A stretch of 34,877 bases of DNA from Geobacter sp. (lineage in GTDB: Bacteria; Desulfobacterota; Desulfuromonadia; Geobacterales; Pseudopelobacteraceae). A program made the position numbers and the translations under genes. The notes under the pieces are model-generated. The model did no database searches, was not told the origin of the DNA, and saw only the letters and a program-made list of their open reading frames with translations. Shown here one piece after another: positions 10,773-34,877 of the stretch. Numbering within the stretch: the stretch's first letter is position 1; every line of letters begins with the position of its first letter. The stretch spans positions 1 to 34,877 of the forward strand of contig JANYBN010000115.1 of NCBI GenBank assembly GCA_025360785.1, read 5' to 3'.

Positions 10773-11843
10773 CTATATCACGACGGTTCCGTCGTATCCG
10801 CACAGCAGAGGCTGTGCCTGTATCCCCGGAGCATGAACGGCGGATATCTGTCTGGCCCGACCGGCGACCAGCTCCATTAGCGCTTTGTCAAAGCCGGTTG
10901 CCACGGCAATTTCACGGGCGGTATTGGCTTGCGAAATGATTGCCAGAATTTCCGGAGAGGTGTGTGCCGCCTCCGCCCACTCCCGTAAAACGGAAAGGTC
11001 CAGTTCTGAAGCAGCTGCGTGGGTGTTTTTATAGCCGCAGGCAATTTTAAGCAACTTGGCAAACTGGCAGGAGATGATCGGCTCCATGAAACCACGTTTG
11101 GCACATGCCTGAAGCGCATACGCGACATGGTCTCCCATCATGATGCAGGCTTCTTCCGGCAGATGAGGAAGATGCTGCTGCGCCGCCATTTCACTGCTCC
11201 GACCTGTGGAGAGGACAACCGTTTTGCAGCCGCAAGCCTTAGCCACATCCAGAGCCGCATCGATGGTGTCGGTCCAGGCCTTTGCTGAAATGGGGCGCAC
11301 AATGCCGGTCGTTCCGAGAATCGAAAGGCCGCCGATGATGCCCAGGCGGGCGTTGAGGGTCTTTTTTGCGCGTTCTTCGCCGTCGGGAATTGAAATTTTG
11401 ATTATGAAATTTGAAGTATGAGTTATGGATTCAGGCAAAACGCTTTCAACTGCTTGTTCAATCATCCGGCGCGGCACCGGGTTGATGGCCCATTCGCCCG
11501 GCGAAACGGCCAGCCCCGGTTTGGTAACCCTGCCGATGCCGGTCCCGCCCTCGATTAGAACTCTCCCCTGAGCGGAATCGCAGGGAACCGATTCCACCCG
11601 TGCATGTACTTCAGCCCCGTTCGTTATATCCGGATCGTCGCCGGCATCCTTGATCACGAAGCAGCCCGCTTCGCGCGCATCGAACGACTGGCCGTCAAGC
11701 CGGAAGGTTGCACTCTCCCCGGTCGGGAGGACAATGCTGACCTCGGAAACCGGCGCCTGATTAATAAACATCAGCGCCGCTCCCCTGGCTGCGGCGGCGG
11801 CGCAGGCGCCGGTGGTATATCCTGAGCGTAGCAAGCGTTTCAT
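10773..11843 (-). CDS. cbiD: Cobalt-precorrin-5B (C1)-methyltransferase
   Basis: This 356-residue enzyme of anaerobic cobalamin synthesis methylates C1 of the cobalt-corrin intermediate, using S-adenosylmethionine. The family N-terminus LRSGYTTGACAAAAA starts three residues after the chosen Met, and further blocks such as GGTGIGRVTKPGL and GGLSILGTTGIV are present. The frame is open to 11918, but the ATG at 11843 has a GGAAG ribosome site and matches the family start. A small perfect hairpin sits just upstream (11857-11870). Other cobalamin genes in the window (cbiC, cbiX) lie in a different transcript. Confidence 0.93.
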   Translation of the reverse strand: MKRLLRSGYTTGACAAAAARGAALMFINQAPVSEVSIVLPTGESATFRLDGQSFDAREAGCFVIKDAGDDPDITNGAEVHARVESVPCDSAQGRVLIEGGTGIGRVTKPGLAVSPGEWAINPVPRRMIEQAVESVLPESITHTSNFIIKISIPDGEERAKKTLNARLGIIGGLSILGTTGIVRPISAKAWTDTIDAALDVAKACGCKTVVLSTGRSSEMAAQQHLPHLPEEACIMMGDHVAYALQACAKRGFMEPIISCQFAKLLKIACGYKNTHAAASELDLSVLREWAEAAHTSPEILAIISQANTAREIAVATGFDKALMELVAGRARQISAVHAPGIQAQPLLCGYDGTVVI

Positions 11844-11856
11844 GGTTCTGCTTCCC

Positions 11857-11870
11857 GCGGCTTTAGCCGC
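11857..11870 (-). promoter_or_regulatory. Short hairpin directly upstream of the cbiD ribosome site
   Basis: The sequence gcggctttagccgc folds into a perfect GC-rich stem of five to six pairs, ending about two bases before the GGAAG site of cbiD. It could influence ribosome access. It is far too small to be a cobalamin riboswitch, and no B12-box sequence was noticed nearby. Confidence 0.3.
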
Positions 11871-11951
11871 ATCGATTGGTATGGCTATTATTGTATCATT
11901 TATTGTCCGGCAGATCATGCTTTTTTGGCGGGGCCATCCAGTACAGTACGG

Positions 11952-20838: not shown

Positions 20839-21447
20839 TTACTGAATGGGGGGATGACCCATCCCCCTCATTTTGTTGAGTTGCGATACAATCGCAAATT
20901 GTTTGTCATTGAAGACGAACTCTTCATCCCGGATGAATACTTGAGTATAGGACGTATCCTTGAACTGATCAAACGTGAATGTGCCTAAAACATTGGATGC
21001 ATCCTGCTGAATACATCTCCCCTTGTACTCCATTTCCAGCCACGCATGATCGATGATGCTTCCCGGAATATCCACTTCGCCCGCTACAACGCGCACGGAC
21101 GAAGCTGGAATCCCCATGGCACGGTAGAGAGCGCAGAGCAGGATGGCTTTTCCGAGACAGCTGGCTTTTCCAGTTGCCAGAATTTCGCCAGCTGGAATTG
21201 CAGGGTCAGCGGCATCGTTGGTGATACGTTCCTGAACAAAACGATAGGCGTTCTCCGGGGTTTTCAGTTCGACAGCAAGCGCCTTGATAAGCTTGTCTTT
21301 TGGCGTGATAAGACTTGAGAGCTCAAAGGGATTGCTGACGATGACATCATGAAATGACAGTGGCGGACGTTTTTTTAGACTGCCGGCGGCAAAACCACAG
21401 ATGAAAGCGAGCACTATAGCCGTAAGCACTACAGCTGTTTTGCGCAT
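20839..21447 (-). CDS. Membrane-anchored or exported transglutaminase-like protein
   Basis: This 202-residue protein has an N-terminal hydrophobic segment (about 5-23), likely a signal or anchor, and a transglutaminase-like core. The catalytic triad is visible: Cys97 in KASCLGKA, His134 in DHAWLE and Asp149 in QQDASN. Bacterial members are usually proteases or peptide transferases. Its start overlaps nuoG by 19 bases, and the STT3-like gene starts 28 bases after its stop. It probably works outside the cytoplasm, perhaps on the same substrate as the glycosyltransferase. Confidence 0.85.
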   Translation of the reverse strand: MRKTAVVLTAIVLAFICGFAAGSLKKRPPLSFHDVIVSNPFELSSLITPKDKLIKALAVELKTPENAYRFVQERITNDAADPAIPAGEILATGKASCLGKAILLCALYRAMGIPASSVRVVAGEVDIPGSIIDHAWLEMEYKGRCIQQDASNVLGTFTFDQFKDTSYTQVFIRDEEFVFNDKQFAIVSQLNKMRGMGHPPIQ

Positions 21448-23327
21448 GATGTTTTCTCCGTAAGTTCAGCTGTCAAGAAACAATCCGTTTCTGCTGTGGG
21501 CGGAGTACCGACCGACTCTCTGCCGCAACGTCTGATGATTTCGGCTATAATGTCCCTTGACGGCAGTACGTCGCCGCCTGGAGCAACGGTTCCATGTTCT
21601 CTCGGCGGATGCCCGGACGGATCCAGTCCCTTGATCGGCAGGCCGGGGTTCATGATCTTACTGAAGTGCTGGGCGCGTCCTTCAAAGTTGACGAAGGTGC
21701 CTTCCATCTCAACCCAGCTGGTGACCGGCAGAACAACTTCGGCGCGCTGGATCAGATCCGTTGCCTGCCAATCGGCGGCTGCCAGCAGTGTAACACCTTC
21801 GAAAGCAGCCGCTGGAATGTCGGCCTCGAAGGTGATGATTCCCTTGATCTTTCCGGGAGCAAATGCCTCCGAACAGGATACGGCATTATGCTTCACGGCC
21901 AGCCGCGCACAGCCGAAGGCATTGGGACCGCATAAAATATAAACCAGTTTCGCACCGTAGATGGAGGGTGGAATCTTCGGCACAGCTGGGTCTGTTCCGC
22001 AAATTATGACCGGGCGTTTGGCCTCCGTGAGTAGAACATCGTCCAGAGACAGGATTTCTTCGGCTTCGAACAGCTGCAGCAGAGCATGATCTGGCGGATA
22101 TTCCGTGCCGACGATATAAACCTTTGCACCGTCACGCCATGCTTGGCGCACAGCCAGCGCCATCATGGGAGCTTCATCCAGCAGCAGGTTGCATCCCGCT
22201 AGCACCACCATGTCTGCCCGTCGCACATCCTCCTGCGAGGCTGCGTTTTTGGTATTCAACTGAGAGACAGCATCAATCGTGCTGTTTGCTTTGGGTGTGT
22301 CATCGAAATAACAGAGCGCTCCGGCATTCAGAGCATCGCGCAACCGTGCTGCCATGATGTTTCCCTCATGCGACATGCGCGGCGAGCCGATGATTGCCAG
22401 GGACTCTGAACCGTGCTGCTTGATGAACGCCAGTATCCGCTCAGAAACCGAATCCAGTGCCGTATTCAGAGTGACGGAGTTTCCGTCAACCAGAGCCTGA
22501 CGCGGCCTCCCGGGAGCATTGACGGCAGTGTTGGAAAAACGGCCCCGGTCGCAGATGAACCAGTCATTAACGGCATCATTGCGGCGGGCGGTGACTTTAA
22601 GTAATTCCCGATAACGCGCCATCGGAACGGTGCTGCAGCCGAGAGAACAGTGCGGGCAGACCGAGGGGGCCATGTCATAATCCCAGTAGCGGGCGCGAAA
22701 ACGGGCTGTTTTATCCGTGAATACACCGGTGGGACAGATGTCCGCCAGATTCCCTGAAAAGGGCGATTCGAGTTGGCCGTCCTGCTGACGTCCGAAGTAA
22801 ACGTTGCCGGAACGCCCCATAACGCCGAAATCTGTGCCGCCGGCGTACTCCTGGTAAAAACGGACACAGCGGTAGCACTGAATGCAGCGGTTCATCTCAT
22901 GCTCGATAAATTCACCGAGATACTGGTTGACGTGGGTACGTTTCAAGCCGTCGTAGCGCCTGATGCCGTGGCCGCCGGCAATGGTGTAATCTTGAAGCTG
23001 GCATTCGCCACCCTCGTCGCAGACCGGGCAGTCATGCGGGTGGTTGATCATCAGCCATTCAATGACCGCGCGGCGCATGGCGACAGCTTCCTTGTCAGTC
23101 GTAGAAACCACCATGCCATCCTGGGCCGGCAGCATGCAGGACATCTGGATCCCCTTGACCGGTCCCTCCATCATCTTGACGGCGCAGGCCCGGCAGGCAC
23201 CGGCTTTCCCGAGGGCCGGGTGCCAGCAGAAATGCGGGATGGTAATACCGATGCTGCGCACGGCCTCAAGAATGTTGACGCCTTCCGCTACTTCAACCGG
23301 TATGTTGTCGATGATTATCTTAGGCAT
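21429..23327 (-). CDS. nuoG: NADH-quinone oxidoreductase subunit G-like protein
   Basis: This 632-residue iron-sulfur protein has an N-terminal ferredoxin domain with [2Fe-2S] cysteines 34, 45, 48 and 64. The His-Cys3 cluster site follows (His96, Cys100, Cys103, Cys109). A [4Fe-4S] site has Cys148, 151, 154 and 198, and an N7-type site has Cys224, 227, 231 and 259. The remaining part is a shortened molybdopterin-like fold with no recognisable cofactor ligand. It is shorter than many NuoG proteins but complete in its clusters. It should carry electrons from NuoF inward. No membrane-arm nuo genes are present in the window. Confidence 0.92.
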   Translation of the reverse strand: MPKIIIDNIPVEVAEGVNILEAVRSIGITIPHFCWHPALGKAGACRACAVKMMEGPVKGIQMSCMLPAQDGMVVSTTDKEAVAMRRAVIEWLMINHPHDCPVCDEGGECQLQDYTIAGGHGIRRYDGLKRTHVNQYLGEFIEHEMNRCIQCYRCVRFYQEYAGGTDFGVMGRSGNVYFGRQQDGQLESPFSGNLADICPTGVFTDKTARFRARYWDYDMAPSVCPHCSLGCSTVPMARYRELLKVTARRNDAVNDWFICDRGRFSNTAVNAPGRPRQALVDGNSVTLNTALDSVSERILAFIKQHGSESLAIIGSPRMSHEGNIMAARLRDALNAGALCYFDDTPKANSTIDAVSQLNTKNAASQEDVRRADMVVLAGCNLLLDEAPMMALAVRQAWRDGAKVYIVGTEYPPDHALLQLFEAEEILSLDDVLLTEAKRPVIICGTDPAVPKIPPSIYGAKLVYILCGPNAFGCARLAVKHNAVSCSEAFAPGKIKGIITFEADIPAAAFEGVTLLAAADWQATDLIQRAEVVLPVTSWVEMEGTFVNFEGRAQHFSKIMNPGLPIKGLDPSGHPPREHGTVAPGGDVLPSRDIIAEIIRRCGRESVGTPPTAETDCFLTAELTEKTSCAKQL

Positions 23328-23337
23328 GGATCACCTT

Positions 23338-24138
23338 TCACTCATCACCTATTCTCTCCGGTATCTTATGTCCACCTACCCAGTCGGCGATGACATGGAC
23401 AACTTTTTCTTCCATCCCGAAGAAGCCATGAGCGCTCAGGTTGTCACAGGGTGCCGAACGCGGATACGCACCGCCGTTTACTTCGGTAAAAGCTACCAGG
23501 GTGGTGGCACTCAGGGCGGACTGCGTTATTCTGGCTTCTTCAAACGAGCTGACCCGGCAGGCGTCGTTACGATGATGTATCATCAAGACAGGGAGCTGCA
23601 GCTGATCCAGCGGCAGCCAGCGCATAAAGTTTTCATGCTCCAGCGCAGATGTCAGAATAACCCCCTTTATATGGCTGTCTTTAATGCGGGTGCCGAGGAA
23701 CGTTGCCGAAAGTGTCCCCCTGCTGTTACCGACCAGAAAAATCCGTTCATATCCCTGCTGTTCAAGATAGTTTACCAGGGATGTAATATCCTCGGCATGC
23801 TCGGGAGATTCGCGAAAACCGGTGCCCATGCCGGTAGGATGATCTGATGGTGGATCAACGGTGAACACCGACAAGCCGTTCTCAACAAAATCATCTGCAC
23901 TGCGTACCAGAAAGTTCCAGCCGCTGACGACCCCGCTTTTGGTCATCTTGAACGGTCCGGCGCCGTTTCCGCCCGGAAAAAGGATCAGTGCATCATGCTG
24001 ACCGGCATTTTCGGGCGTCATGGCAAGGAAGTCCATGGTAACACCCGGCCGGGTCGAAATAGAGCGGATCTCCGTGAGGGCAAAAGAGGTGGTGGCCAGA
24101 GCCAGCAGGAGAACTGTTGTACGGAGAAACAGAAGCAT
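23338..24138 (-). CDS. Exported alpha/beta hydrolase
   Basis: This 266-residue protein has a signal peptide (about 1-20) and an alpha/beta-hydrolase fold. Nucleophile Ser139 is in GNSRGT; the acid is likely in HHRNDACR and the histidine in SAHGFFG. The ATG at 24138 shares one base with the nuoF stop (TGATG) and begins a clean signal peptide; an upstream ATG at 24168 is in frame. An esterase inside a nuoF-nuoG pair is unusual; its substrate is unknown. Confidence 0.8.
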   Translation of the reverse strand: MLLFLRTTVLLLALATTSFALTEIRSISTRPGVTMDFLAMTPENAGQHDALILFPGGNGAGPFKMTKSGVVSGWNFLVRSADDFVENGLSVFTVDPPSDHPTGMGTGFRESPEHAEDITSLVNYLEQQGYERIFLVGNSRGTLSATFLGTRIKDSHIKGVILTSALEHENFMRWLPLDQLQLPVLMIHHRNDACRVSSFEEARITQSALSATTLVAFTEVNGGAYPRSAPCDNLSAHGFFGMEEKVVHVIADWVGGHKIPERIGDE

Positions 24139-25415
24139 CAGCAGGTATGAACTCCTTTGAAAGGGCAACGCTGCGCCGAGACATGCTCCCGCAGTTCATC
24201 CTCGAAGTGGTTCAGCAACCCATCCACCGGGCCCATCGCCCCGGGGGCCAAGGCACAGAATGCATAATTCAGCATATGGACATGTTCCCGCAGAATGTCA
24301 ATGTCCTGGGGCTCACCCCGCCCGGATTCGATCCGCTCCAAAGTGTGCTGCACGAAGGGGAGCCCCTCGCGGCAGGGAGTACACCAGCCGCACGATTCCC
24401 GTGCGAAAAAACGGATCAGATTGAGTGTGACCGCCACCATGCAGGTCGTCTGGTCGAAGACGATGATTCCTCCCGTACCGAGCCGGGAACCGGCTTTGGC
24501 CACCGTGTCGAAATCCATCGGCACGTCCCGATGTGCACCGGTGAGGTACTGCGTAGAGGCTCCGCCGGGAATGCAGACCTTGAAAATGCTGCCGGGGCGC
24601 ATGCCGCCGCAGGGGCCGTCGATAATATCGCCAAGGGTCATGCCGAGCGGCAGCTCGAAACAGTCAGTGTTGACTACGTGCCCGCTGATACAGAACAGCT
24701 TGGTTCCGGCGGCCTCGGGGGTGGCAGCGGTGTTTTTCCACCAGAGCGGCCCTCCGGTGATGATTGCGGGGATGTTGGCCAGAGTCTCCACGTTATTTAC
24801 GACGGTCGGCTGTCCCCATAAACCTTTGATGGCCGGGAAAGGTGGTTTAACGCGCGGATTGGCGCGTTTTCCCTCCAGTGCGTTGATCAGGGCGGTTTCC
24901 TCACCGCAGATATAACGACCGGCTGACTGATGTACGCCCAGTTCCAGGCTGAAGCCGCTCCCCAGGATGTTGCTGCCCAGAAAGCCGGAAAGATGGGCAG
25001 CAGCAATCGAACACCGCAGGTTTTCGGCGGCCTGCTCATAGCCATGGCGCACGAAAATAAAGGCGTGCTGCACCCCGAGCGCATAACAGGCCAGGGCCAT
25101 CCCCTCCACCAGCAGGTGCGGGTTTCGCTCCAGCAGCACGCGATCCTTGTAAGTGCCAGGTTCCATCTCATCGCAGTTGCAGATCAGATAGCGCGGACCA
25201 GGAAGGTCACGCGGCACGAACGACCATTTCTTCCCGGTCGGAAATCCGGCGCCGCCTCGCCCCCGCAGACCGGAATCGATAACACTTTGCTGGACTTCAG
25301 CGGGAGTCATGGTCGTGAGAGCATTCGTTAGCGCTACAAAACCGGCGACTGAACGGTACTCGTCAAATGTAAGGCATTGTCCGGGGCGGGTATGTTTGAG
25401 CAGGATTTGTTCCAT
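24138..25415 (-). CDS. nuoF: NADH-quinone oxidoreductase subunit F-like flavoprotein
   Basis: This 425-residue protein is the NADH-oxidising, FMN-binding subunit. RGRGGAGFPTG (51-61) is the NADH/FMN site, GEETALI (171-177) is the FMN region, and an SLBB domain lies at about 240-330. The [4Fe-4S] cluster ligands Cys342, Cys345, Cys348 (ESCGWCTPCREG) and Cys387 are intact. The length is normal for NuoF and shorter than HoxF or HydB, which have an extra N-terminal domain. Its neighbours nuoE and nuoG are present but separated from it by inserted genes. Confidence 0.95.
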   Translation of the reverse strand: MEQILLKHTRPGQCLTFDEYRSVAGFVALTNALTTMTPAEVQQSVIDSGLRGRGGAGFPTGKKWSFVPRDLPGPRYLICNCDEMEPGTYKDRVLLERNPHLLVEGMALACYALGVQHAFIFVRHGYEQAAENLRCSIAAAHLSGFLGSNILGSGFSLELGVHQSAGRYICGEETALINALEGKRANPRVKPPFPAIKGLWGQPTVVNNVETLANIPAIITGGPLWWKNTAATPEAAGTKLFCISGHVVNTDCFELPLGMTLGDIIDGPCGGMRPGSIFKVCIPGGASTQYLTGAHRDVPMDFDTVAKAGSRLGTGGIIVFDQTTCMVAVTLNLIRFFARESCGWCTPCREGLPFVQHTLERIESGRGEPQDIDILREHVHMLNYAFCALAPGAMGPVDGLLNHFEDELREHVSAQRCPFKGVHTC

Positions 25416-25466
25416 GGATTGTGGTCACCGGGGAGACCGGTTAATGTGGCTCCCCGGTAGGACAGG

Positions 25467-25766
25467 TTACTTCTTGAAGGTTTTTATTATATAGCCGGCC
25501 AGCAGTTTTGCGTCTACATCGGAAATCGCCTTGGCATCGAAGGCGGGCATTCCGCCGCCACCCTTGCGAACTTGAGCGATGATCTTCTTGGTGTCTTTCA
25601 GACCTTTCAGGGTCTCTTTCGGCTTCATGATGTTGCCGCCGTCCGGGTGACAGGAAGCGCAATGTGCCTTGAAAATTGCCTCGCCGCTGTTTGCAGCAGC
25701 AAAGGCAGCTGCTGACATCATACCCAGGCTCAATACAACTGTTGCCGTAAGGATGTTTCTTTTCAT
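25467..25766 (-). CDS. Small periplasmic monohaem cytochrome c (class I, c553-like)
   Basis: This 99-residue precursor has a signal peptide (about 1-24) and one haem site CASCH (36-40), with the likely sixth ligand Met73 in GGGMPAF. The mature form is about 75 residues, in the range of soluble c6/c553 electron carriers. The ATG at 25766 has a GGAG site seven bases upstream; the frame is open to 25832, but that extension lacks a signal and is rejected. The gene is inserted between nuoE and nuoF, which suggests that it is made together with the diaphorase, although it acts on the other side of the membrane. Confidence 0.92.
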   Translation of the reverse strand: MKRNILTATVVLSLGMMSAAAFAAANSGEAIFKAHCASCHPDGGNIMKPKETLKGLKDTKKIIAQVRKGGGGMPAFDAKAISDVDAKLLAGYIIKTFKK

Positions 25767-25881
25767 GGGTTTCTCCTTTTTAATCAAGTCGTTGTCCTCT
25801 TTCAGAGGGGGAGTGGCACAGAACAATAGCACTCCGGAAGCGTACAGACAAGTAGTCGTTTGTATGGAGTCATCTGTCGGG

Positions 25882-26361
25882 TCAGCTATTCCGTAAGGCC
25901 GTTATTAACTGCGTACCGGCTTCGAGAGACATGCGGCCATATTGTCTTTCGCCGATCATCATGCATGGAGCTTCGCCGCAGTTGCCCAGGCAAGAGCAGG
26001 GAAGCAGGGTGACAGCGCCGTCAGCGGTGGTTGAGCCCGGAGCAATTTCCAACAACTGTGCCAGCGATTTCAGCAGTGTTTCACCACCAACAGCCCAGCA
26101 GGAGATGGAGTCGCAGACATGCACAACATGACGCCCCACCGGACGCCGGTAGATCATTTCATAAAATGTGGCCAATTCTTCAAGCTGGAGTGTTGACAAG
26201 CCAAGCAGTTCTGAAGCCTCTTCAAGCGCTTCATCGGTCAGCCATCCATAATGGCGTTGCAGCTCTTTCATTACATCTACAGCAGCCTCCCGATTGGTGA
26301 TGGCGGTGCTGACGCGTTGTTCAAGGTTCACTTTGAGAAGTTCCGGGATCATAGCGAACAT
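25882..26361 (-). CDS. nuoE: NADH-quinone oxidoreductase subunit E-like [2Fe-2S] protein
   Basis: This 159-residue thioredoxin-like ferredoxin has a helical N-terminal bundle (about 20-72) and a [2Fe-2S] site with Cys83, Cys88 (CDSISC), Cys124 and Cys128 (CLGNC). These match the family. It pairs with NuoF. It is the first gene of the 11-gene minus-strand run. No clear ribosome site was found at the ATG at 26361; an in-frame ATG at 26352 is possible. The 267 bases upstream are a divergent promoter region. Confidence 0.93.
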   Translation of the reverse strand: MFAMIPELLKVNLEQRVSTAITNREAAVDVMKELQRHYGWLTDEALEEASELLGLSTLQLEELATFYEMIYRRPVGRHVVHVCDSISCWAVGGETLLKSLAQLLEIAPGSTTADGAVTLLPCSCLGNCGEAPCMMIGERQYGRMSLEAGTQLITALRNS

Positions 26362-26628: not shown

Positions 26629-28119
26629 ATGATCTGCCCGCTGTCACCTGCCCATTTTGTCGCACTGGGTGCCTTTCAACTTTTTACAGTGTTGCTTTTT
26701 ATTAATGTGAATCTTGCTCCGCTGCCGCTTCTTGTCTTCATTCTCCTCTGCTGCATCACCCCGCTGTTTCCTCGTCTCAGTTTTTTTCTGCCGATAATCA
26801 GTAAAGGAAAGATGGGAGCAAAAGGGGTGGCCCTTACTTTCGATGACGGTCCCGATCCGGAGGTTACCCCGCAGCTTCTGGAACTTCTGGCGCGCCACGG
26901 AGTGACGGCAACCTTCTTTGTGACCGGAGCACGTGCTGAGCTCTACCCTGATATTGTGAAAGCGATCCTCGCCGGCGGGCATGCGATCGGAAACCATTCC
27001 TACAGCCATTCTCCGTTTCTGATGCTCAAGAGACGCACCACCCTCCAGCGTGAGATTGTATCAGCACAGCTGGTTTTTCAGCAGTTCGGTATCGTGCCGC
27101 TAGTTTTTCGCCCTCCGGTCGGCATTACCAACTCCCGTCTCTGGCGGGTTCTGCTTGAAAACGGTATGTTCTGCGTTAATTTCAGCTGCCGTGCCGCAGA
27201 TTTCGGCAACAGACGGGTGACGAAGCTTGCAGGCAGATTGCTGGCGAAAGTCGTCCCCGGCGATATTATTCTGCTTCATGACGTTGCGCCGGTACAGTGT
27301 AACGTAACGCATCTGCTGCATGAATTCTCTACTCTCATAGAGGGACTGAAGGAAAAAGAACTGGAAATTCTTCCGCTGGGTCGGCTTATCGGGAAGGAGG
27401 TCATGCAGTCCGGTGCGTCTGACTCCGGACCTAACCCTGCGGAACTGTTCTACAACGGTCTGGCCGAAACCTACGATCAGGAACAATTCAACTCCAGGGT
27501 GTCGCTGTCGCGCTCTATGGAATACCGGCTGTTTTCGGCACAAGTGCCTACGCTCTTTGCAGGTGCAGGCCGTGTCCTTGAAGTAGGCGCCGGCACCGGC
27601 ATATTCACACTGGATATCGCCAGAAACTGCACTGAAGTGCTGGCTGCGGATATTTCCGGCAACATGCTGAAACTGCTGGAAAAAAAAGCCGCTACTGAGG
27701 GAATAACAAATATTAGAACCTTGAAAGGCAATGTGGAGACGATGGAGCTTGAAGGGCCTTTTTCGGTTGTGTGCGCTTTTTTGGCACTGGAATATCTTGC
27801 CGACCTGCCTGCCTTTTTAATCCGTTTGGCGCGCCATGTTGAAGCGGGAGGCTCCGTATATTTTATTACCGCCCGCACTTCACTGTTCAGGCTCTTCACC
27901 CAGATCGGCAACGCCATGAGGCAAGGACTCTGGTTGAAAGCTTACAGCAGTCGGGAAATCGAGGTTATGCTGACGACTGCCGGGTTCGATCGTATAGCCA
28001 TCTCATCGCACCTGTTCAAGTCGTTTTTGTCCGGAGGCATGCTGCTGGAGGTGTCTGCACGCAGGGTCGCTGCCGCTTCTGTTTCTGTCTTGCCGACGAA
28101 TGAACCGGAGGGGGCGTGA
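26629..28119 (+). CDS. NodB-type polysaccharide deacetylase fused to a SAM methyltransferase
   Basis: This 496-residue protein has two N-terminal membrane helices (about 8-56), then a NodB/CE4 deacetylase domain (about 65-255). It shows TFDDGPDP (70-77), metal-binding HSYSH (123-127), RPPVG (161-165) and LLHD (215-218). A class I methyltransferase domain (about 270-470) follows, with the SAM loop EVGAGTG (318-324). The deacetylase removes acetyl groups from amino sugars; the methyltransferase substrate is unknown. The fusion suggests two steps on one membrane-bound sugar or glycolipid. The ATG at 26629 has an aaaagga site; a TTG at 26626 precedes it. The next gene overlaps or abuts the stop. 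Confidence 0.88.
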   Translation: MICPLSPAHFVALGAFQLFTVLLFINVNLAPLPLLVFILLCCITPLFPRLSFFLPIISKGKMGAKGVALTFDDGPDPEVTPQLLELLARHGVTATFFVTGARAELYPDIVKAILAGGHAIGNHSYSHSPFLMLKRRTTLQREIVSAQLVFQQFGIVPLVFRPPVGITNSRLWRVLLENGMFCVNFSCRAADFGNRRVTKLAGRLLAKVVPGDIILLHDVAPVQCNVTHLLHEFSTLIEGLKEKELEILPLGRLIGKEVMQSGASDSGPNPAELFYNGLAETYDQEQFNSRVSLSRSMEYRLFSAQVPTLFAGAGRVLEVGAGTGIFTLDIARNCTEVLAADISGNMLKLLEKKAATEGITNIRTLKGNVETMELEGPFSVVCAFLALEYLADLPAFLIRLARHVEAGGSVYFITARTSLFRLFTQIGNAMRQGLWLKAYSSREIEVMLTTAGFDRIAISSHLFKSFLSGGMLLEVSARRVAAASVSVLPTNEPEGA

Positions 28120-28121
28120 AC

Positions 28122-29372
28122 ATGGCACAGGAAACGATCCAGCTCCACGTATCAGAGCTGAACGGAGTCACTACAGAGCTGAAAACTCTTGTGGTTATTC
28201 CGGTATATAACCATGTGAAGACACTGCGCAAGGTGGCCAAGGGGGCGTTGGCAGAGGGATTTGCCGTTCTGGTTGTGGATGACGGCAGCACGGACGGCAG
28301 TCTTGACAGCGTCGCCGATCTGCCGATCGGGCGTCACCGTCTGGCGGTGAATCAGGGCAAGGGCGGCGCCATCCTGGCGGCGGCACAACTGGCACGGAGT
28401 GCCGGTTACCAGGCGATTCTGACCATAGATGCCGACGGCCAGCATGACCCCGCAGATGCGCGGCAGCTCCAGGAAACGGCCTCTTCATCCTGGCCTTGCA
28501 TCGTCATCGGCGCACGCAGAATGGAGACTCTGAATGTGCCGCGTTCAAGTCTCTTCGGCAGGGACTTTTCCAATTTCTGGGTCAGGATCGAATGCGGGCA
28601 GACCCTGCCTGACACCCAGAGCGGCTACAGGCTTTACCCCGTGGAGTTTTTGGAGAGTTCCCGCTTCCTTTCGCGGCGTTACACCTTTGAGATTGAGGTT
28701 CTGGTGCGCGGGCGCTGGGCAGGACTGCCGGTGCTGTCTACCCCGGTATCGGTCTACTATCCTCCGGGAGATGAGCGGATTTCGCATTTCCATAAGTTCA
28801 AAGACAATCTGCGCCTCAGCTGTTTGCATACATTTCTGGTGACACGTTCACTAATCCCATGGCCGCATCGCCAGTTGTTCCGGGATGCCGGCGCCGAGCG
28901 TCTGCCGAGCATCTTTCAGCCACTTCTTTATTTCAGAGCGATGAGCAGGGAACACTCAAGTGCGACACAGTTGGCCGCTGCGGTATGGGTCGGCGTATTT
29001 ATCGGTGCACAACCTATCATCCCGTTCGGTATAGCGGTCACCGTCTATGTATGCCACAAACTCCACCTTAACAAGCTTGCCGCAGTCGGCGCCAGTAACA
29101 TCTGTTGCGCCCCCTTTGTGCCGTTTCTGTGTATTGAACTTGGCCATTATCTTCTTTATGGTAAATTCTGGTACGAATTCAACCGGCACTCGCTTTTGAA
29201 TGAGATCCATTACAGGCTTTGGGAATGGCTGATTGGAGCATTGCTGATCGGTCCGCTGCTCGGAGTGATGGCGGCGCTTTTTGCCTATCTCATGGTGAGC
29301 ACCTTTCGCAAGCGTAGGGATAGTGATGTATCAACGCAGGATGATATGATAGAAAAGGCGGAAGCCCGATGA
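28122..29372 (+). CDS. GT2 glycosyltransferase fused to a DUF2062 membrane domain
   Basis: This 416-residue protein begins with a GT-A fold family-2 glycosyltransferase (about 20-240). It shows VIPVYN, DDGSTDGS (53-60), the DxD-type metal site DADGQHDP (103-110) and a later TQSGYRLYP block. The fold resembles dolichyl/polyprenyl-phosphate sugar transferases. The C-terminal part (about 255-400) is a DUF2062 domain with several membrane helices. It should transfer sugar or acyl-sugar to a lipid on the inner face of the membrane. The ATG at 28122 has a ggaggggg site eight bases upstream; a GTG at 28116 overlaps the previous stop. Its stop overlaps the radical SAM gene (ATGA). Confidence 0.88.
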   Translation: MAQETIQLHVSELNGVTTELKTLVVIPVYNHVKTLRKVAKGALAEGFAVLVVDDGSTDGSLDSVADLPIGRHRLAVNQGKGGAILAAAQLARSAGYQAILTIDADGQHDPADARQLQETASSSWPCIVIGARRMETLNVPRSSLFGRDFSNFWVRIECGQTLPDTQSGYRLYPVEFLESSRFLSRRYTFEIEVLVRGRWAGLPVLSTPVSVYYPPGDERISHFHKFKDNLRLSCLHTFLVTRSLIPWPHRQLFRDAGAERLPSIFQPLLYFRAMSREHSSATQLAAAVWVGVFIGAQPIIPFGIAVTVYVCHKLHLNKLAAVGASNICCAPFVPFLCIELGHYLLYGKFWYEFNRHSLLNEIHYRLWEWLIGALLIGPLLGVMAALFAYLMVSTFRKRRDSDVSTQDDMIEKAEAR

Positions 29373-30664
29373 GGATTTTGCTTATTAACCCGCCCAACTG
29401 TGGCAGGAGTATCCCGGAAGAGCGCTACGGCATTGATTCGATTCGTCAGATTTTCCGCGGTGAGCCGTTGGCGCTTGAGGTTTTGGCCGGTAACCTGACC
29501 GGACATGAGGTGCAGATTCTTGACCTGAAGGCGGATCCTGACGGCATGCAGCAGGCTCTTGAAAACTTCAGGCCGGAACTGGCCGCCTTTACTGCGGTCA
29601 CCTGCGAAGCCAATACAGTCCTGCGTTTGGCCGGAGAGCTGAAAGACCGTTGCGGGGCTCAGGTAGTGGTGGGCGGCATTCACGCCAGCTGTGATCCGGC
29701 TTTCTTTAACAATTCGGCCATCGATTATATCGTTGTCGGTCTCGGCAAGGGGAGCTTTGCCGAACTGGCCGCAGCAATAGAGGCTGGTACCACGGCCAGT
29801 GCGATCCCGGGCGTCGCGGCGACCAGGCCGGGGAGCGCGCTTGCCTTTGCCCCCAGACGCTTCGGAACGCTTGATCTTGCGGAGCACGCCCCACCGCGCT
29901 ATGACCTCGTCGCCGGTAATCGCAGCAGCTACACCCTTTCTGCCGTCAGTTCCCGGCTCGGCATGGTTGTATCGGCCTTCGGCTGCCCTTACAGCTGCTC
30001 ATTCTGCTGTATCAGCTCCCAGTCAGCCGGACGCTATCTGACCCACTCAATTGATACGGTTATCAGGGACATCCGGCTACTGGGCGACATCCCGGTGATT
30101 CGACTGGTTGATGCCAATACGTTCGGGAACACCGAACATGCGCGCCTGCTGGCTGAGGCGATTATGGCGGAGGGGATCCGGAAACATTTTATCGCCGACG
30201 TGCGTTCAGACACGGTTGTGCGCCATCCGGAACTCATGCGGCAGTGGAAAGAAGCCGGCTTGCGCTCTGTAGTGATCGGCTTCGAGGAAATTGCCGACGG
30301 TGACCTCACGTTTTTCAACAAGGAAAACAGTGTTGCCGTCAATGATGAGGCCATAACCATCCTGCACGAACTCGGCATTACCATCGTAGGCGACTTCATC
30401 GTCTCGCCCGATTATGACGACGCCCGTTTCGACGCGCTGGAAAGTTACGTGAACAGGATGGCTATCGAACTCCCGATCCTGACGGTGCTGACTCCTCTGC
30501 CCGGAACACCCCTCTATGCCGAGCAGCAGGAACGCATCACGATCAGGGATCTCGACTATTACACGCTAACCAATGCGGTCGTGCCGACCCGCCTCGGAGA
30601 AAAACGCTTTTATCAGCAGTACGCCAGACTTATCAAGTCTTTCCACGCCAACGCAAAATTATAG
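29369..30664 (+). CDS. B12-binding-type radical SAM enzyme
   Basis: This 431-residue protein has an N-terminal Rossmann domain of the B12-binding type (about 1-145; LLINPPNCG at the start, VVVGGIHAS at about 99-107). The classical cobalamin DxHxxG motif is not visible. The radical SAM core follows, with the cluster ligands Cys206, Cys210 and Cys213 in FGCPYSCSFC. It should cut S-adenosylmethionine to make a radical and could methylate, cyclise or rearrange a lipid or sugar. It overlaps the glycosyltransferase gene by four bases and precedes the ketosynthase by 12 bases. Confidence 0.9.
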   Translation: MRILLINPPNCGRSIPEERYGIDSIRQIFRGEPLALEVLAGNLTGHEVQILDLKADPDGMQQALENFRPELAAFTAVTCEANTVLRLAGELKDRCGAQVVVGGIHASCDPAFFNNSAIDYIVVGLGKGSFAELAAAIEAGTTASAIPGVAATRPGSALAFAPRRFGTLDLAEHAPPRYDLVAGNRSSYTLSAVSSRLGMVVSAFGCPYSCSFCCISSQSAGRYLTHSIDTVIRDIRLLGDIPVIRLVDANTFGNTEHARLLAEAIMAEGIRKHFIADVRSDTVVRHPELMRQWKEAGLRSVVIGFEEIADGDLTFFNKENSVAVNDEAITILHELGITIVGDFIVSPDYDDARFDALESYVNRMAIELPILTVLTPLPGTPLYAEQQERITIRDLDYYTLTNAVVPTRLGEKRFYQQYARLIKSFHANAKL

Positions 30665-30676
30665 GGTGAGTCTCTA

Positions 30677-31816
30677 ATGAATGCATACATAACAGATATC
30701 GCGGCCTTTCTTCCCAACGAACCGGTGAATAACCAGAATATTGAGAAGGTACTCGGCATGGTGAACCAGACCCCCTCGCGCACCCGGGCCATTATTCTCA
30801 GGAACAACAAGATCAGGGAACGTCACTACGCCATCGAGCCCGACACGGGCCGGATTACCCATACCAACGCCCAGCTTACTGCCGAGGCGGTGCGCCGGTT
30901 GAACCCTTATGCAGGCTTCACCCCGGATCAGATAGAGTGTCTTGCCTGCGGCACCTCCTCGCCTGACCAGATTATGCCGGGGCACGGTCTGATGGTGCAT
31001 GGCGAACTGGCGAGCGCGCCGTGCGAAGTGGCGAGCATGTCTGGCATCTGCCTCTCCGGGATCAGCGCGCTCAAGTATGCAGCCATGAATGTGGCGTCCG
31101 GGATTACCGGCAACGCGGTGGCGACCGGGTCCGAACTTGCTTCCACGTTCATGCGTGCCGAACTGTTTGATGCGGTGACGCCTGAAAAGGCGGCGGAACT
31201 GGAGGCGTGCCCAAGCATATCTTTCGATGCCGATTTTCTGCGCTGGATGCTGTCGGATGGAGCCGGGGCCGCATTTGTCAGCGCCACCCCTTCGCTTGAC
31301 CGACCGTCATTGAAGATAGAGTGGATCGAGCATCTCTCCTTTGCGGGTGAGCTTGAGACCTGCATGTATAGCGGCGCGGTAAAAAATGATGACGGCAGTG
31401 TCACCGGCTGGCGCAACCTTAGCGGAGCGGCAGGTGCCGAAGCAATTCTGGTCAAGCAGGATGTAAAACTCCTGAACCGGGAGATCATCACCACGATCGT
31501 GAACAGAACCCTTACCCGGGTGATTGCAAAACATAACATCTCCCCCGGACAGATCAGTTGGTTTCTCCCCCATTACTCATCGGATTACTTCCGCCAAAGC
31601 CTCCATGACCGGATGGTCGAGATCGGCTTTTCGGTCCCCTTTGAACGCTGGTTCACCAATTTACCGACCAAGGGAAACACCGGTTCCGCCTCGATCTATA
31701 TTATGCTGGAGGAAATTTTTCACTCGGATCGCCTCAAGCGGGGCGACACCATTCTCTGTATGATTCCGGAAAGCGGCAGGTTCTCGGTAGCCTATGTGCT
31801 GATGACGGTCGTATGA
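30677..31816 (+). CDS. Beta-ketoacyl-ACP synthase III-like enzyme (FabH/DarB-like)
   Basis: This 379-residue thiolase-fold enzyme carries the FabH-type catalytic triad Cys125 (SGICLSGI), His299 (FLPHYSSD) and Asn334 (TKGNTGSAS). The CGTSSPDQIMPGHG stretch (91-104) and the length above that of FabH (about 320) place it near the DarB-type synthases of dialkylresorcinol and related pathways rather than housekeeping FabH. It should condense an acyl chain with a ketoacyl group held on an acyl carrier protein. The minus-strand acyl carrier protein gene at 34163-34426 is a candidate partner. It is the last gene of the plus-strand run. Confidence 0.85.
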   Translation: MNAYITDIAAFLPNEPVNNQNIEKVLGMVNQTPSRTRAIILRNNKIRERHYAIEPDTGRITHTNAQLTAEAVRRLNPYAGFTPDQIECLACGTSSPDQIMPGHGLMVHGELASAPCEVASMSGICLSGISALKYAAMNVASGITGNAVATGSELASTFMRAELFDAVTPEKAAELEACPSISFDADFLRWMLSDGAGAAFVSATPSLDRPSLKIEWIEHLSFAGELETCMYSGAVKNDDGSVTGWRNLSGAAGAEAILVKQDVKLLNREIITTIVNRTLTRVIAKHNISPGQISWFLPHYSSDYFRQSLHDRMVEIGFSVPFERWFTNLPTKGNTGSASIYIMLEEIFHSDRLKRGDTILCMIPESGRFSVAYVLMTVV

Positions 31817-31899
31817 AATCAGCATCCATCCCGAATTATCTTTCATCAGGTTAATCCGGGTTTAGTCGCATGTCTTAGATTTATCGGCATTAGCGGCGT

Positions 31900-32826
31900 T
31901 CATCGGTGTTTTATTGGCATCGCCGCGATTTGTTGCGGTATAGACCGCAGAAAGTTGCTCCACGCGGCGAGATATGCCGAGCAGTCCCACATGAAGACAT
32001 CGCAGTGCCCACCCCCGCTGATAATGTGGAGCGATTTCGGTGCAACGGCCCGGGCAATGAGCCTTCTGGTCATCTCCACCGGGACCAGAGTATCATTATC
32101 TCCATGTATTAAGAGCAACGGTACCCCGGCACGCCCGATCTTGTTAAGGTTGTCAAAGGGGATGTCTATACCCCACCATCCAACCGTATAGTAGGCAAAC
32201 GGTGAAATATGTTTTACAATCTCCTTCATTGAAGTGAAGGAACCTTCCATGACCAGCCCTGAAGGCGGGCTTTCCAGGGCCATCTGGAGCGCCACTGCAG
32301 ACCCCATCGACTGCCCGAAGAAAATCATCCTCTCATGTCGCCATCCTAGTCCTTCCAGGTAGAATAAAGCTCCGCGGGCATCCTGATAAAGATCATTTTC
32401 CCGAAGCGGTTTTCCCTCACTTTTTCCGTAGCCCCGGTAATCAAAGATGAAAATGGGAAACCCTTGCCCGTGCAGCAGGTTCAGGTACTCCACATTGTCG
32501 GATAGATTCCCGGCATTTCCGTGAAAGAAAAGCACGAGCGGTGTTTCGGGTGCACCCGGTACGTACCAGCCGTTCAGCCGCACTCCATCGCGGGCCGAAA
32601 ACCAGATTTCCTGATAGGGGATGCTGTTCAATAGCGGTGAGGCGGAGATTTCCTTTTTGGGCAGGAAAACTGACCGGTTCATGATGGCACAACCTAACAG
32701 ATTCAGCAGAAAAAGAATTATTACCCCGGACCTGTAAAGGTGCCTCCAGGATAATGTCGGCTTCCTTGCACACTTGGCCGCTATAAGCACATTTGCCCTG
32801 ATAGTCTTAGTCACTGATGCTACCAT
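31900..32826 (-). CDS. Lipoprotein alpha/beta hydrolase (BEM46/S33-like)
   Basis: This 308-residue protein has a basic N-terminus, a hydrophobic segment (about 34-45) and a lipobox LLGC with Cys46, so it is probably a lipid-anchored envelope enzyme. The alpha/beta-hydrolase core shows an oxyanion motif FFHGNAGN (100-107), nucleophile Ser173 in GQSMGS, Asp in HGDNDTLVP and His in GGGHCDVF. An aaaagg site lies eight bases before the ATG. It could be an esterase or thioesterase acting on lipids made by the neighbouring genes; that is inference. Confidence 0.85.
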   Translation of the reverse strand: MVASVTKTIRANVLIAAKCARKPTLSWRHLYRSGVIILFLLNLLGCAIMNRSVFLPKKEISASPLLNSIPYQEIWFSARDGVRLNGWYVPGAPETPLVLFFHGNAGNLSDNVEYLNLLHGQGFPIFIFDYRGYGKSEGKPLRENDLYQDARGALFYLEGLGWRHERMIFFGQSMGSAVALQMALESPPSGLVMEGSFTSMKEIVKHISPFAYYTVGWWGIDIPFDNLNKIGRAGVPLLLIHGDNDTLVPVEMTRRLIARAVAPKSLHIISGGGHCDVFMWDCSAYLAAWSNFLRSIPQQIAAMPIKHR

Positions 32827-33117
32827 AGGCTTAGCCTTTTTTCCGCGTAGTCCCTTGCAGTCGCGTCACAATTTATTTCATAGTCTGGTGATGCACTTCA
32901 TATGATATGCCAAGTTTGTATTGATAAATGTTACTATATTACAAGTTGTTACGATTTAATCAGGTTGTCGGTGAATGTAAGGTGTGTTTGAGCAGGCGGG
33001 ATATCAATAGAGGGTTTGTAAGAATATGTGGCTGATGCCGGGATGTTACGAGATGTTATGATATTTTTCAGCTATTCATTTTGTAACATCGTATGGAACG
33101 AGCGCGGGTTGGTTTCG
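32827..33117. other. Intergenic region with gttac-type repeats, no gene seen
   Basis: This 291-base AT-rich gap has no convincing coding frame. It contains an inverted pair gatgttac (33042-33049) / gtaacatc (33083-33090), with a further gatgttatg at 33052, and two more gttac copies near 32930-32955. These may be regulatory for the hydrolase gene. No consensus promoter was placed. Confidence 0.4.
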
Positions 33118-33561
33118 TCATAGCAACACTCCAACGCCGAGGAATACATTGACCAGATAAAGAGCAAGGACTGTGAGTCCCAGCCGGTAATGAAGGTCCC
33201 GTTGCGGAGCGCCCGGTCCGGAGATCTTTCGGGAGAAGCTATAAGTAAACAAGAGCAGGAAGACAATTGCCGATCCGACGAACAGGTGGGGAGGGTACTG
33301 GAGAACGTTCCCGGTATCAATCACGACCAGAATCAGTCCGGCTGAGTAGCCTGCCGCTCCGGATATCGCCAGACCCGGCCCCATACGGCGGTGTCGTTTA
33401 ATTGCCTGGAGCGGTAGCGCTGTTTTGCCTGTCCGGGATCGCCTGATCATCAGGCCGTTGCGGGCATGATAAAAAAACAGGAGCATCACGGTCAGATTGA
33501 AGAGGCCGTGAACCAGCTTCAAAATGGCGATCAGCTCCCTGCTTATCAGTGGAAACTGCAT
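33118..33561 (-). CDS. DUF4079-like four-helix membrane protein
   Basis: This 147-residue protein has four likely membrane helices (about 11-32, 62-82, 93-110 and 126-146). Histidines lie near helix ends (His18, His32, His57, His92, His124), a pattern like cytochrome b561-type haem proteins. RHRRMGPGLAISGAAGYSAG (about 56-75) resembles DUF4079 proteins. It is nine bases after the cupredoxin gene, so the two are probably expressed and may work together in membrane electron transfer. Haem binding is inference. Confidence 0.7.
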   Translation of the reverse strand: MQFPLISRELIAILKLVHGLFNLTVMLLFFYHARNGLMIRRSRTGKTALPLQAIKRHRRMGPGLAISGAAGYSAGLILVVIDTGNVLQYPPHLFVGSAIVFLLLFTYSFSRKISGPGAPQRDLHYRLGLTVLALYLVNVFLGVGVLL

Positions 33562-33570
33562 GTGCTACTC

Positions 33571-34041
33571 CTAATCAACGACTTCGATCATTCCTTCCAT
33601 GCCCCTTTCCCTGTGAGTCTTGAACCATAGTAAGCTCTTGTCACAGTAGATCGGGTATTTGCCGGCCTTTTTCGGGGTGAATTTCACCGTTTGGGAGTCC
33701 CCTTTCAGGTCTAGTTTAAATTCAATCCCTGCATCCGGTGCTTTTGCAACCAGGTCATGCGGAACGTAACCTGCTGCTTTTTTAACTTTCAACTCCACCG
33801 GCTTGTTCACTTTGACCACGATATAGTTGGGATCATAGAAATAGTCGCCACCGATCATTTCAACCCTCTGTACTCCGTCGGCATCAACCTTAGCGACAAA
33901 ACGTTTTTCCTTCCACGTTCCGTGGTCGTGAGTCTGGCCACTTTCCGGTCTGGCCTCTTCCTTGGTGTCCGCAGCATACACGGTGAAACTACAGAGGGAG
34001 AATAGGACAAAAAAACCGATGTAATGCTTAAAGTTTCTCAT
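33571..34041 (-). CDS. Exported cupredoxin-fold protein
   Basis: This 156-residue protein has a signal peptide (about 1-23) and a cupredoxin-like beta domain (about 60-155). Copper ligand candidates are His95 (VPHDL), Cys133 (IYCDKS), His143 (KTHRERG) and Met148 (GMEGM), the order expected for a type 1 copper site, although Cys and His are ten residues apart, which is wider than in plastocyanin. A second His-rich patch (THDH, 38-40) may also bind metal. A near-perfect aaggagg site precedes the ATG. It probably carries electrons in the periplasm, with the DUF4079-like protein as possible membrane partner. Confidence 0.85.
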   Translation of the reverse strand: MRNFKHYIGFFVLFSLCSFTVYAADTKEEARPESGQTHDHGTWKEKRFVAKVDADGVQRVEMIGGDYFYDPNYIVVKVNKPVELKVKKAAGYVPHDLVAKAPDAGIEFKLDLKGDSQTVKFTPKKAGKYPIYCDKSLLWFKTHRERGMEGMIEVVD

Positions 34042-34162
34042 AGACGCCTCCTTACGTTATCTGCCAGTGGGTTAATGATACCATAATATTGCCGGTTTTA
34101 AACGGACACACAGAAATTTAAATTCAGCATGGCATTATGAAAAATCGGCTATGCGAAATCCG

Positions 34163-34426
34163 TCATTCCCGGTGGCGGCGGATATAATCGGCCAGGGTTC
34201 TGAGTGACTGAAGAACCTGGCGGCTCGACTCCGTACTTTCGATTCTGACATTATATTTTCGCTGCACAGCTACGACTACTTCCACAGCATCAAGCGAATC
34301 AAGGTCGAATGGGGAGTCCGGGCCGATCAGCGGCGCGTCAAAAGATATATCCGCCGGAACGGGACCGGCAACTCTGCACGCCTCTATCAACATCTCTATC
34401 AGTTCCTGCTCCAGATTGTCTTGCAC
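34163..34426 (-). CDS. Acyl carrier protein
   Basis: This 87-residue protein has the phosphopantetheine attachment motif FDLDSLDAVEV with Ser44, in a four-helix ACP fold. It starts at GTG with an aaggag site seven bases upstream. It differs from housekeeping AcpP (long acidic N-terminus, GPDSPF before DLDSLD) and sits after an ABC-2 permease rather than fatty acid genes, so it is probably a dedicated carrier for a specialised lipid. The ketosynthase at 30677-31816 is the nearest possible user. Confidence 0.9.
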   Translation of the reverse strand: MQDNLEQELIEMLIEACRVAGPVPADISFDAPLIGPDSPFDLDSLDAVEVVVAVQRKYNVRIESTESSRQVLQSLRTLADYIRRHRE

Positions 34427-34451
34427 GTATATTCTCCTTAGTCTGCCAGTG

Positions 34452-34877
34452 TCACCGGGTACGGTTGCTGCGTATTGCCAACCCTGAAATTGTTACGGTT
34501 ACGATGAAAAAGAGCAACAGGTACGACATTTCGGGGAGTACGGTGCGCAAACTCCCTCCCCTGACGAAGATATCCTGAAAGGCTGTCAGCCCCCAGGCGA
34601 GTGGGGAATAGGTACTGATTTCCTGCATGTAACGGGGCATGACGTACACCGGTATCATGATGCCCCCCAATGCTGCGGCAATAACAATGGAAACTGCGCC
34701 GAACATGGACGCCTGTTCATAGGTTTTGGCCAGGGTGCCTACCATCAGACCATAACCGGTTGCCGCCAGTGAAGCGGCCAGTGCGACAGGGATAATAGTC
34801 ACCAGTACGGCTCCTGTTTCCAAACCAGACGTTCCCAGCAACGGCAGAAGGTATGATCCTGCCATAAGCATCAGGGA
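34452..34877 (-). CDS. ABC-2 type exporter permease (C-terminal part, cut by window end)
   Basis: The 141 visible residues are the C-terminal half of an ABC-2 permease. Membrane helices lie at about 10-35, 55-75 and 118-135, with the family block IPVYVMPRYMQEISTYSPL followed by WGLTAFQDIF. The frame continues past the window end. Such permeases export lipids, glycolipids or small molecules with a separate ATPase. It ends 25 bases before the ACP gene start on the same strand, so it is probably part of the same transcript. Confidence 0.9.
   Translation of the reverse strand, partial: SLMLMAGSYLLPLLGTSGLETGAVLVTIIPVALAASLAATGYGLMVGTLAKTYEQASMFGAVSIVIAAALGGIMIPVYVMPRYMQEISTYSPLAWGLTAFQDIFVRGGSLRTVLPEMSYLLLFFIVTVTISGLAIRSNRTR

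Follow-up and report, generated by a model that had tools for sequence, protein, structure and literature searches.

A putative aryl polyene-dialkylresorcinol gene cluster of Geobacter with a radical SAM gene in the position of darA

Gene content of the locus

The window analysed here, 34,877 nucleotides from Geobacter sp. (assembly GCA_025360785.1, contig JANYBN010000115.1), is the entire contig C177 of a genome in 229 contigs. The subject of this analysis is the set of nine genes at 26629..34877, above all a ketosynthase of the StlD/DarB family and the radical S-adenosylmethionine (SAM) enzyme encoded directly upstream of it, which we call rSAM1. An initial annotation, made from the sequence alone, had named these nine genes and read them as an undescribed locus for a lipid or glycolipid and its export. 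Open reading frames as well as Pfam and NCBIfam scans locate all nine:

26629-28119, plus strand, polysaccharide deacetylase-class I methyltransferase fusion (Pfam PF01522, 1.5e-29; PF13649, 1.3e-15)
28116-29372, plus strand, GT2 glycosyltransferase-DUF2062 fusion (PF00535, 1.4e-17; PF09835, 8e-13)
29369-30664, plus strand, rSAM1, radical SAM enzyme with a B12-binding domain (PF02310, 3.3e-15; PF04055, 5.6e-12)
30677-31816, plus strand, StlD/DarB-family ketosynthase, a dialkylresorcinol (DAR) cyclase (NF005293, 567.9 bits, cut-off 450)
31900-32826, minus strand, alpha/beta hydrolase (PF12146, 4.4e-22)
33118-33561, minus strand, DUF4079 membrane protein (PF13301, 6.3e-16)
33571-34041, minus strand, cupredoxin-like protein (PF13473, 8.7e-7)
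34163-34426, minus strand, acyl carrier protein (ACP) in the darC position (PF00550, 1.9e-5)
34452-34877, minus strand, ABC-2 permease, C-terminal 141 residues, in the darI position (PF01061, 7.1e-14)

As judged from sequence, the window holds the DAR module at the edge of an aryl polyene-DAR supercluster, presumably for a pigment-like lipid; the cluster resembles those for flexirubin and arcuflavin and includes radical SAM genes of the ladderane type. The observation of the initial annotation is right and its interpretation partly right; what it overlooked is the unusual feature of the locus, a radical SAM enzyme in place of DarA.

The plus-strand genes form the tight run of four described before, with 4-base overlaps at each junction of the first three and the ketosynthase starting 12 bases after rSAM1. 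The deacetylase domain of the fusion has all of TFDDGP, HSYSH and LLHD, which we take to be the deacetylase motifs. The ketosynthase passes the StlD/DarB subfamily model NF005293, misses the stricter DarB exception model NF053539 (466.9 versus 550 bits) and stays far below the FabH model TIGR00747 (71.3 bits, cut-off 292). Its closest solved structure by sequence is StlD (5gk0, 420 bits). The catalytic residues Cys125, His299 and Asn334 align with those of StlD and are kept in 86 of 86, 84 of 84 and 82 of 82 aligned rows having a letter at the respective position, which agrees with the intact Cys-His-Asn set noted earlier. The ACP contains a DSL motif with the carrier serine and exceeds the Pfam PP-binding cut-off (25.3 versus 20.8). 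It lies below every NCBIfam ACP model scanned (best PRK09184, 53.3 versus 70) and misses the ACP equivalog TIGR00517 (23.3 versus 70). The FabH and ACP model scores rule out that the two are FabH and AcpP of plain fatty acid synthesis.

In three genomes a carbamoyltransferase gene follows the DarB-type ketosynthase (L003, 11206-12912; L036/L037 of G008; L108 of G215; here and below G, C and L are our numbers for genomes, contigs and loci), hinting at a carbamoylated product in these genomes.

Linkage in relatives and the remainder of the cluster

We surveyed 277 genomes of the class and a phylum sample of 365 genomes. A DarB-type ketosynthase is present in 78 genomes, namely in 52 of the 277 class genomes and in 26 further ones. 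Counts of neighbouring genes refer to the sequence stretches around the ketosynthase. Where at least 6 kb of downstream sequence is available, a convergent ACP and permease stand beside the ketosynthase in 22 of 36 genomes of the class and in 7 of 17 others. Thus, the two gene sets of the window do occur together in relatives, and the earlier proposal of a DarB-type synthase with its own carrier protein and exporter holds. From the proposed minus-strand set only ACP and permease are conserved; hydrolase, DUF4079 and cupredoxin genes fall outside. Homologues of the hydrolase are found near the ketosynthase in 4 other genomes among the 52 of the class, at other positions, and this gene is a loosely associated accessory. 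Of the 52 class genomes, 2 have DUF4079 and cupredoxin genes close to the ketosynthase, one of them being the genome of the window, and the two genes are probably a local insertion outside the system. Nine of the 14 class genomes without the convergent pair belong to family f10, where the rSAM1-ketosynthase pair stands apart. Among genomes with at least 4.5 kb of upstream sequence, only 6 of 40 in the class and 2 of 20 others have the deacetylase-methyltransferase and GT2-DUF2062 fusions ahead of the ketosynthase; G032 has both as well, in a shorter upstream stretch.

With the end of the contig at 34877 the permease gene is truncated by the assembly. What look like the missing parts of the cluster lie on two further contigs of this genome. 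On C91 (4596 bases) we find part of a ketosynthase gene, PagL, a DarG-like gene, DarH (478.6 bits, cut-off 300), the ABC ATPase that was expected beyond the contig end, and the N-terminal 303 residues of a permease which run off the contig end; the C-terminal 141 residues of a permease of this kind are in the window. The DarG-like protein is 57% identical to the protein of L009, which passes NF053536 (151.7 versus 70). In relatives the genes adjoining the ABC ATPase pass the DarH (466.9, cut-off 300) and DarG family models (151.7, cut-off 70).

The second contig, C77, has in one run three B12-type radical SAM genes, ketosynthases, a thioesterase, ApeI- and ApeP-like dehydratases, an MMPL exporter, LolA, an aromatic ammonia-lyase, a FlxY-like ligase, an acyltransferase, an ACP and a phytoene-desaturase-like flavoenzyme. 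The dehydratases had also been sought beyond the contig end; the ApeP-like one passes Pfam (30.2 versus 27) and the ApeI-like one falls short (20.3 versus 28.5). The radical SAM gene at 1805-3127, near the contig start, matches TIGR04072 (rSAM_ladder_B12) with 682.7 bits against a cut-off of 360; the third radical SAM gene of this core is below the Pfam cut-offs in L004. In G243 and G118 a single run, with a few inserted genes, comprises rSAM1-DarB, ACP, permease, ATPase, DarH, DarG, PagL, ketosynthases, the radical SAM trio and the polyene core. Ammonia-lyase and ligase are missing within that run; in G032, G174, G087 and G128 both adjoin the core.

TIGR04072 matches occur in 146 of the 277 class genomes, in 62 of them with at least 450 bits. 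The ketosynthase and a high-scoring TIGR04072 protein occur together in 46 of the 52 ketosynthase genomes (odds ratio 100, Fisher p 5e-32). Both share a contig in 21 of the 46; 17 of these have them no more than 16 kb apart, and the remaining 4 at distances of 50 to 114 kb. In the f10 members G072, G073 and G074 the rSAM1-ketosynthase pair is 100-114 kb from TIGR04072. The other 25 of the 46 genomes have ketosynthase and TIGR04072 on different contigs and are uninformative on linkage. This co-occurrence, the high TIGR04072 score in the genome itself and the similar clusters that Rattray 2009 names in Geobacter species (PMC2649909, in excerpt) would suit a cluster for ladderanes or for polyunsaturated fatty acids made anaerobically, like those proposed in Kuenenia and Desulfotalea, in which the DarB-like ketosynthase serves that lipid. 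However, ammonia-lyase, FlxY-like ligase, ApeI/ApeP-like dehydratases, LolA and MMPL together with DarH and the DarG-like protein are an aryl polyene-DAR set. Furthermore, the ketosynthase and TIGR04072 parts are separable, because 16 of the 62 high-scoring TIGR04072 genomes have no DarB-type ketosynthase. We therefore regard a ladderane-type lipid as very unlikely, and the locus is with high probability of the aryl polyene-DAR type.

A second TIGR04072 group in 84 of the 277 class genomes scores 337-411 bits, with a clear gap below the group at 450 bits and above. It is probably a paralogous family with another role.

Comparison with known clusters

For the published clusters we rely on excerpts of the papers cited. 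The dar genes of Azoarcus sp. BH72 are darA (aromatase), darB (cyclase), darD, darE (BtrH-like) and darF (ABC ATPase), then two genes of another kind, darI (permease), darC (ACP) and darJ (ketosynthase) (PMC3949708, Table 1). The arc loci of Azoarcus hold a methyltransferase (arcM) beside a polysaccharide deacetylase (arcN), LolA, an exporter, dehydratases and a ligase (PMC3949708). By position and by the BtrH label the DarG and DarH of NCBIfam look like darD and darE of Azoarcus, so that the names clash.

With the arcuflavin system the Geobacter locus shares DarB, a small conserved protein, a BtrH-like acyltransferase, ABC ATPase and permease, ACP and ketosynthase on the dar side, and ligase, dehydratases, LolA, exporter, methyltransferase and polysaccharide deacetylase on the polyene side. 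The fusion at 26629-28119 is comparable to arcN and arcM by annotation only. Thus, the combination is not undescribed, as had been thought, but equals the arcuflavin dar set beside an aryl polyene core (PMC3949708), and polyene-DAR clusters were reported from many taxa in 2014 (PMC3949708). Three differences stand out. Azoarcus has darA beside darB where Geobacter has a B12-type radical SAM gene; the starter is made by a chorismatase in Azoarcus and presumably by way of an aromatic ammonia-lyase here; and three further radical SAM genes and the desaturase-like flavoenzyme are found only here.

The flexirubin clusters of Chitinophaga pinensis and Flavobacterium johnsoniae (PMC3992019) share ammonia-lyase, FlxY-type ligase, LolA, exporter, polysaccharide deacetylase and DarB with our locus. 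They differ in that DarA is present there, while the strict FlxA, FlxY, LolA2 and DarB models are missed here. The ladderane-type clusters of Kuenenia and Desulfotalea (PMC2649909) have in common with it radical SAM genes (TIGR04072 here), a phytoene-dehydrogenase-like and a phenylacetyl-CoA-ligase-like protein and multiple ketosynthases. A DAR module does not come up in the excerpts on these clusters, and the product here need not be a ladderane. Ladderane-type or ladderane-labelled clusters have been mentioned for Geobacter (Rattray 2009, PMC2649909) and in 2023 for Desulfobacterota (PMC9902471).

For the N-deacetylated, methylated sugar of the initial annotation we find no support. A sugar-linked glycolipid is likewise unsupported, as deacetylase and glycosyltransferase genes recur in the excerpts on published polyene clusters.

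The partner of the ketosynthase

The gene directly upstream of the ketosynthase was determined by tblastn (same strand, within 600 bases) in the 78 genomes. It is rSAM1 in 63, a DarA-like gene in 11 and neither of these in one (G136, whose DarA-like gene lies elsewhere); in three (G094, G124, G321) the contig edge intervenes. Within the class the figures are 49 of 52 for rSAM1 and none for DarA-like, with two edges and the one other case; among the further phylum genomes they are 14 of 26 and 11 of 26, with one edge and no other. In none of the 78 genomes did we see rSAM1 together with a DarA-like gene. The ketosynthase gene of the edge genome G321 (C28:44781-45884), near the contig end, has one TAG within the match.

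The DarA-like protein was recognized in SG8_13 (L013), where a protein of 306 residues is encoded upstream of the ketosynthase in the position that rSAM1 has in the window. Its similarity to flavodoxin is under the Pfam cut-off; the structure model (predicted local distance difference test, pLDDT, 82) has a WrbA-like flavodoxin domain of the flavin mononucleotide type plus a C-terminal helical part. We take this flavodoxin-fold protein as DarA because a homologue heads an Azoarcus-like dar row in G413, G439 and G485. There, DarA-like, DarB, DarG-like, DarH-like, ABC ATPase, permease and ACP genes stand in one row, in the order darA-B-D-E-F-I-C of Azoarcus, which has two inserted genes between F and I. 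Strong matches (E below 1e-60) are found in 11 of the 365 phylum genomes, all 11 beside the ketosynthase, and in a single one of the 277 class genomes (G136, E 7e-79). The window's own genome has no match at E 0.001. The NCBIfam models NF053540 and NF053538, which we had guessed to be DarA models, are LolB2_flexi and DixhxACActTsKce and have no match in this genome.

On a mobilizable-typed plasmid of Streptomyces sp. NBC_00008 (L147, 5712-13036) genes for an ACP, a DarB-like ketosynthase, a DarA-like protein, a monooxygenase, FabF and a P450 lie in a row. The DarA-like protein, unnamed and encoded directly after the DarB-like gene, is 33% identical to that of L013. A named DarA is absent from three plasmid regions with relatives of the ketosynthase.

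A ketosynthase tree of 86 rows (quick search, with Shimodaira-Hasegawa-like approximate likelihood ratio test, SH-aLRT) was used to follow the partner; four outgroup rows and three edge rows were left out of the partner count. On this tree at least 3 changes of partner are required. The DarA-like row L013 groups with three rSAM1 rows (SH-aLRT 97), and G136 falls into a 23-row clade that includes 21 rSAM1 rows (SH-aLRT 95). A single clade for the 12 DarA rows is rejected by the approximately unbiased test (p-AU 0.003; 70-row set and plainer model). The ring-finishing enzyme thus appears to have been swapped repeatedly, in one direction or the other.

Lineage history might by itself account for the exclusion of rSAM1 and DarA, if DarA was lost and rSAM1 gained by chance and the functions are not equal. 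The partner label is strongly clustered on the tree and 52 of the 78 genomes come from one class, as this explanation would have it. We nevertheless hold it for quite unlikely in view of the three changes, the rejected one-clade arrangement and the fact that L013 and G136 carry DarA-like genes yet group with rSAM1 rows. At the level of sequence comparison we demonstrate gene content, linkage in relatives, an exclusive choice of partner and repeated swaps, whereas we infer each reaction below, the joining of the two halves of the product and aromatization rather than methylation by rSAM1.

The proposed role of rSAM1

The cysteines Cys206, Cys210 and Cys213 of rSAM1 are invariant in 35 of 35 aligned orthologues, chosen from 66 collected. 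TsrM, OxsB and AprD4 are among the best-matching solved folds for its structure model (pLDDT 90), and a profile search of solved structures finds TsrM, MgmA, AprD4, TokK and OxsB. The curated cut-offs are missed for HpnR, the best NCBIfam match (177.9 versus 650), and for BchE (116 versus 481). Orthologues occur in 48 of the 271 class genomes searched out of 277, and 47 of these also have the ketosynthase; the exception is G125 with a partial match. G100 and G158 are absent from this list although rSAM1 was found upstream of their ketosynthase.

The product of DarB is a cyclohexanedione, which DarA oxidizes. We think it more likely than not that rSAM1 does the job of DarA, as a non-homologous stand-in. 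Taken as a whole, the locus is probably best explained as the end of an aryl polyene-DAR supercluster with rSAM1 in place of DarA. Slightly less probable than its opposite is the more detailed proposal that rSAM1 is an oxygen- and flavin-independent aromatase of the DarB cyclohexanedione, which displaced DarA or was displaced by it several times in the phylum.

We suggest that the synthesis could proceed in the following steps. DarB would join two fatty-acyl thioesters to a cyclohexanedione-type ring. In place of DarA, rSAM1 would then convert the ring to the resorcinol by a radical SAM-dependent two-electron oxidation and without the DarA flavoprotein: a SAM-derived radical would abstract a hydrogen from the ring, the second electron could pass to the iron-sulfur cluster or to cobalamin, and the resorcinol would result. 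The ACP (DarC), the DarG- and DarH-type proteins and the ABC transporter (DarF/DarI) might load, transfer and move the DAR unit, whereby DarH as a BtrH-like acyltransferase would move an acyl group from an ACP. The C77 core (ammonia-lyase, ligase, ketosynthases, dehydratases, LolA, MMPL) would make the aryl polyene to which the DAR unit is joined, and the joined product could be exported by the ABC transporter or the MMPL system. A working analogy is the pair AcsF/BchE of bacteriochlorophyll synthesis, where under anaerobic conditions a B12-type radical SAM enzyme catalyses a step for which another enzyme class is used elsewhere; the parallel does not extend to substrate, product and sequence family.

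In the alternative, rSAM1 is a C-methyltransferase acting on the cyclohexanedione, the acyl chain or the polyene, and DarA would be missing because the product keeps its unaromatized ring or because some other enzyme encoded in the cluster aromatizes it. HpnR, the best match, is a C-methylase, methylases make up three of the five solved relatives from the profile search (TsrM, TokK, MgmA), and the core offers three more such radical SAM genes plus the phytoene-desaturase-like flavoenzyme. On the other hand, for a decorating enzyme one would neither expect that all 63 rSAM1 genomes lack a strong DarA-like gene, nor that it swaps at least three times with DarA-like at the same place. In addition, oxidation is catalysed by OxsB-type members and by BchE. 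The latter carries out a multi-electron oxidation under anaerobic conditions (PMC13142503, in excerpt). This makes the methyltransferase somewhat unlikely in our view.

Several points weigh against an aromatase in a polyene-DAR cluster. Most B12-type radical SAM enzymes are methylating, the fold relative AprD4 is a dehydratase, and rSAM1 is no more than a putative cobalamin user. Members of this phylum are largely anaerobes; lack of oxygen, however, explains the swap poorly, because DarA-like genes also occur in the same phylum. The flavodoxin-fold protein is named by no NCBIfam model, and we take it for DarA on gene order, fold and exclusive pairing rather than on comparison to an authentic DarA sequence. 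In G136 the DarA-like gene is on a different contig from the ketosynthase, which is partial, and the absence of rSAM1 refers to the neighbourhood of the ketosynthase only. The rSAM1 genomes G465, G508, G528 and G566 have weak, short flavodoxin matches (E 1e-13 to 1e-18), proteins of about 230 to 270 residues that occur also in genomes without the ketosynthase. NF005293 is not DAR-specific and is over its cut-off in one of 14 control genomes. The core misses the flexirubin equivalog cut-offs for FlxA (472.7 versus 700), FlxY (466.7 versus 520) and LolA2 (114.8 versus 125). C177, C91 and C77 are physically separate contigs, whose order C177-C91-C77 we infer. Finally, the rSAM1-ketosynthase pair also occurs without another dar gene in the examined stretch, for example in G305, G497, G517, G142, G143 and G167.

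In the open-access literature searched we found no description of a radical SAM enzyme replacing DarA. If rSAM1 does the job of DarA, cyclohexanedione aromatization joins the non-methylating reactions of B12-type radical SAM enzymes, and this suggests that ladderane-labelled clusters with a DAR module in this phylum make aryl polyene-dialkylresorcinol pigments. The suggestion is checkable by lipid extraction from cultured Geobacter-like strains, and the one-gene swap of rSAM1 and DarA offers a clean genetic test.

In 18 loci (for example L008:8093-8503) the same kind of small protein is encoded upstream of rSAM1. The one that was scanned is PNPOx-like, a flavin-binding family (30.0, cut-off 28.1), and could be a redox partner.

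Neighbouring genes

The minus strand at 21429-26361 adjoins the cluster with a NuoG-like (21429-23327) and a NuoF-like gene (24138-25415) which are probably not members. Between and beyond these we recognize by eye a probable NuoE (25882-26361) and a small protein with a CxxCH motif (25467-25832). Promoter-like patterns in the window number 11 against 6.4 (standard deviation 2.6) in shuffles and terminator-like patterns 13 against 9.2 (standard deviation 3.1); neither was used as evidence. At 18582-20810, minus strand, a protein of 742 residues with an AglB-like peripheral domain is encoded; the Pfam name is that of an archaeal family. The distance between rSAM1 and a gene for CbiD of cobalamin biosynthesis (10773-11918, minus strand) is about 18 kb.

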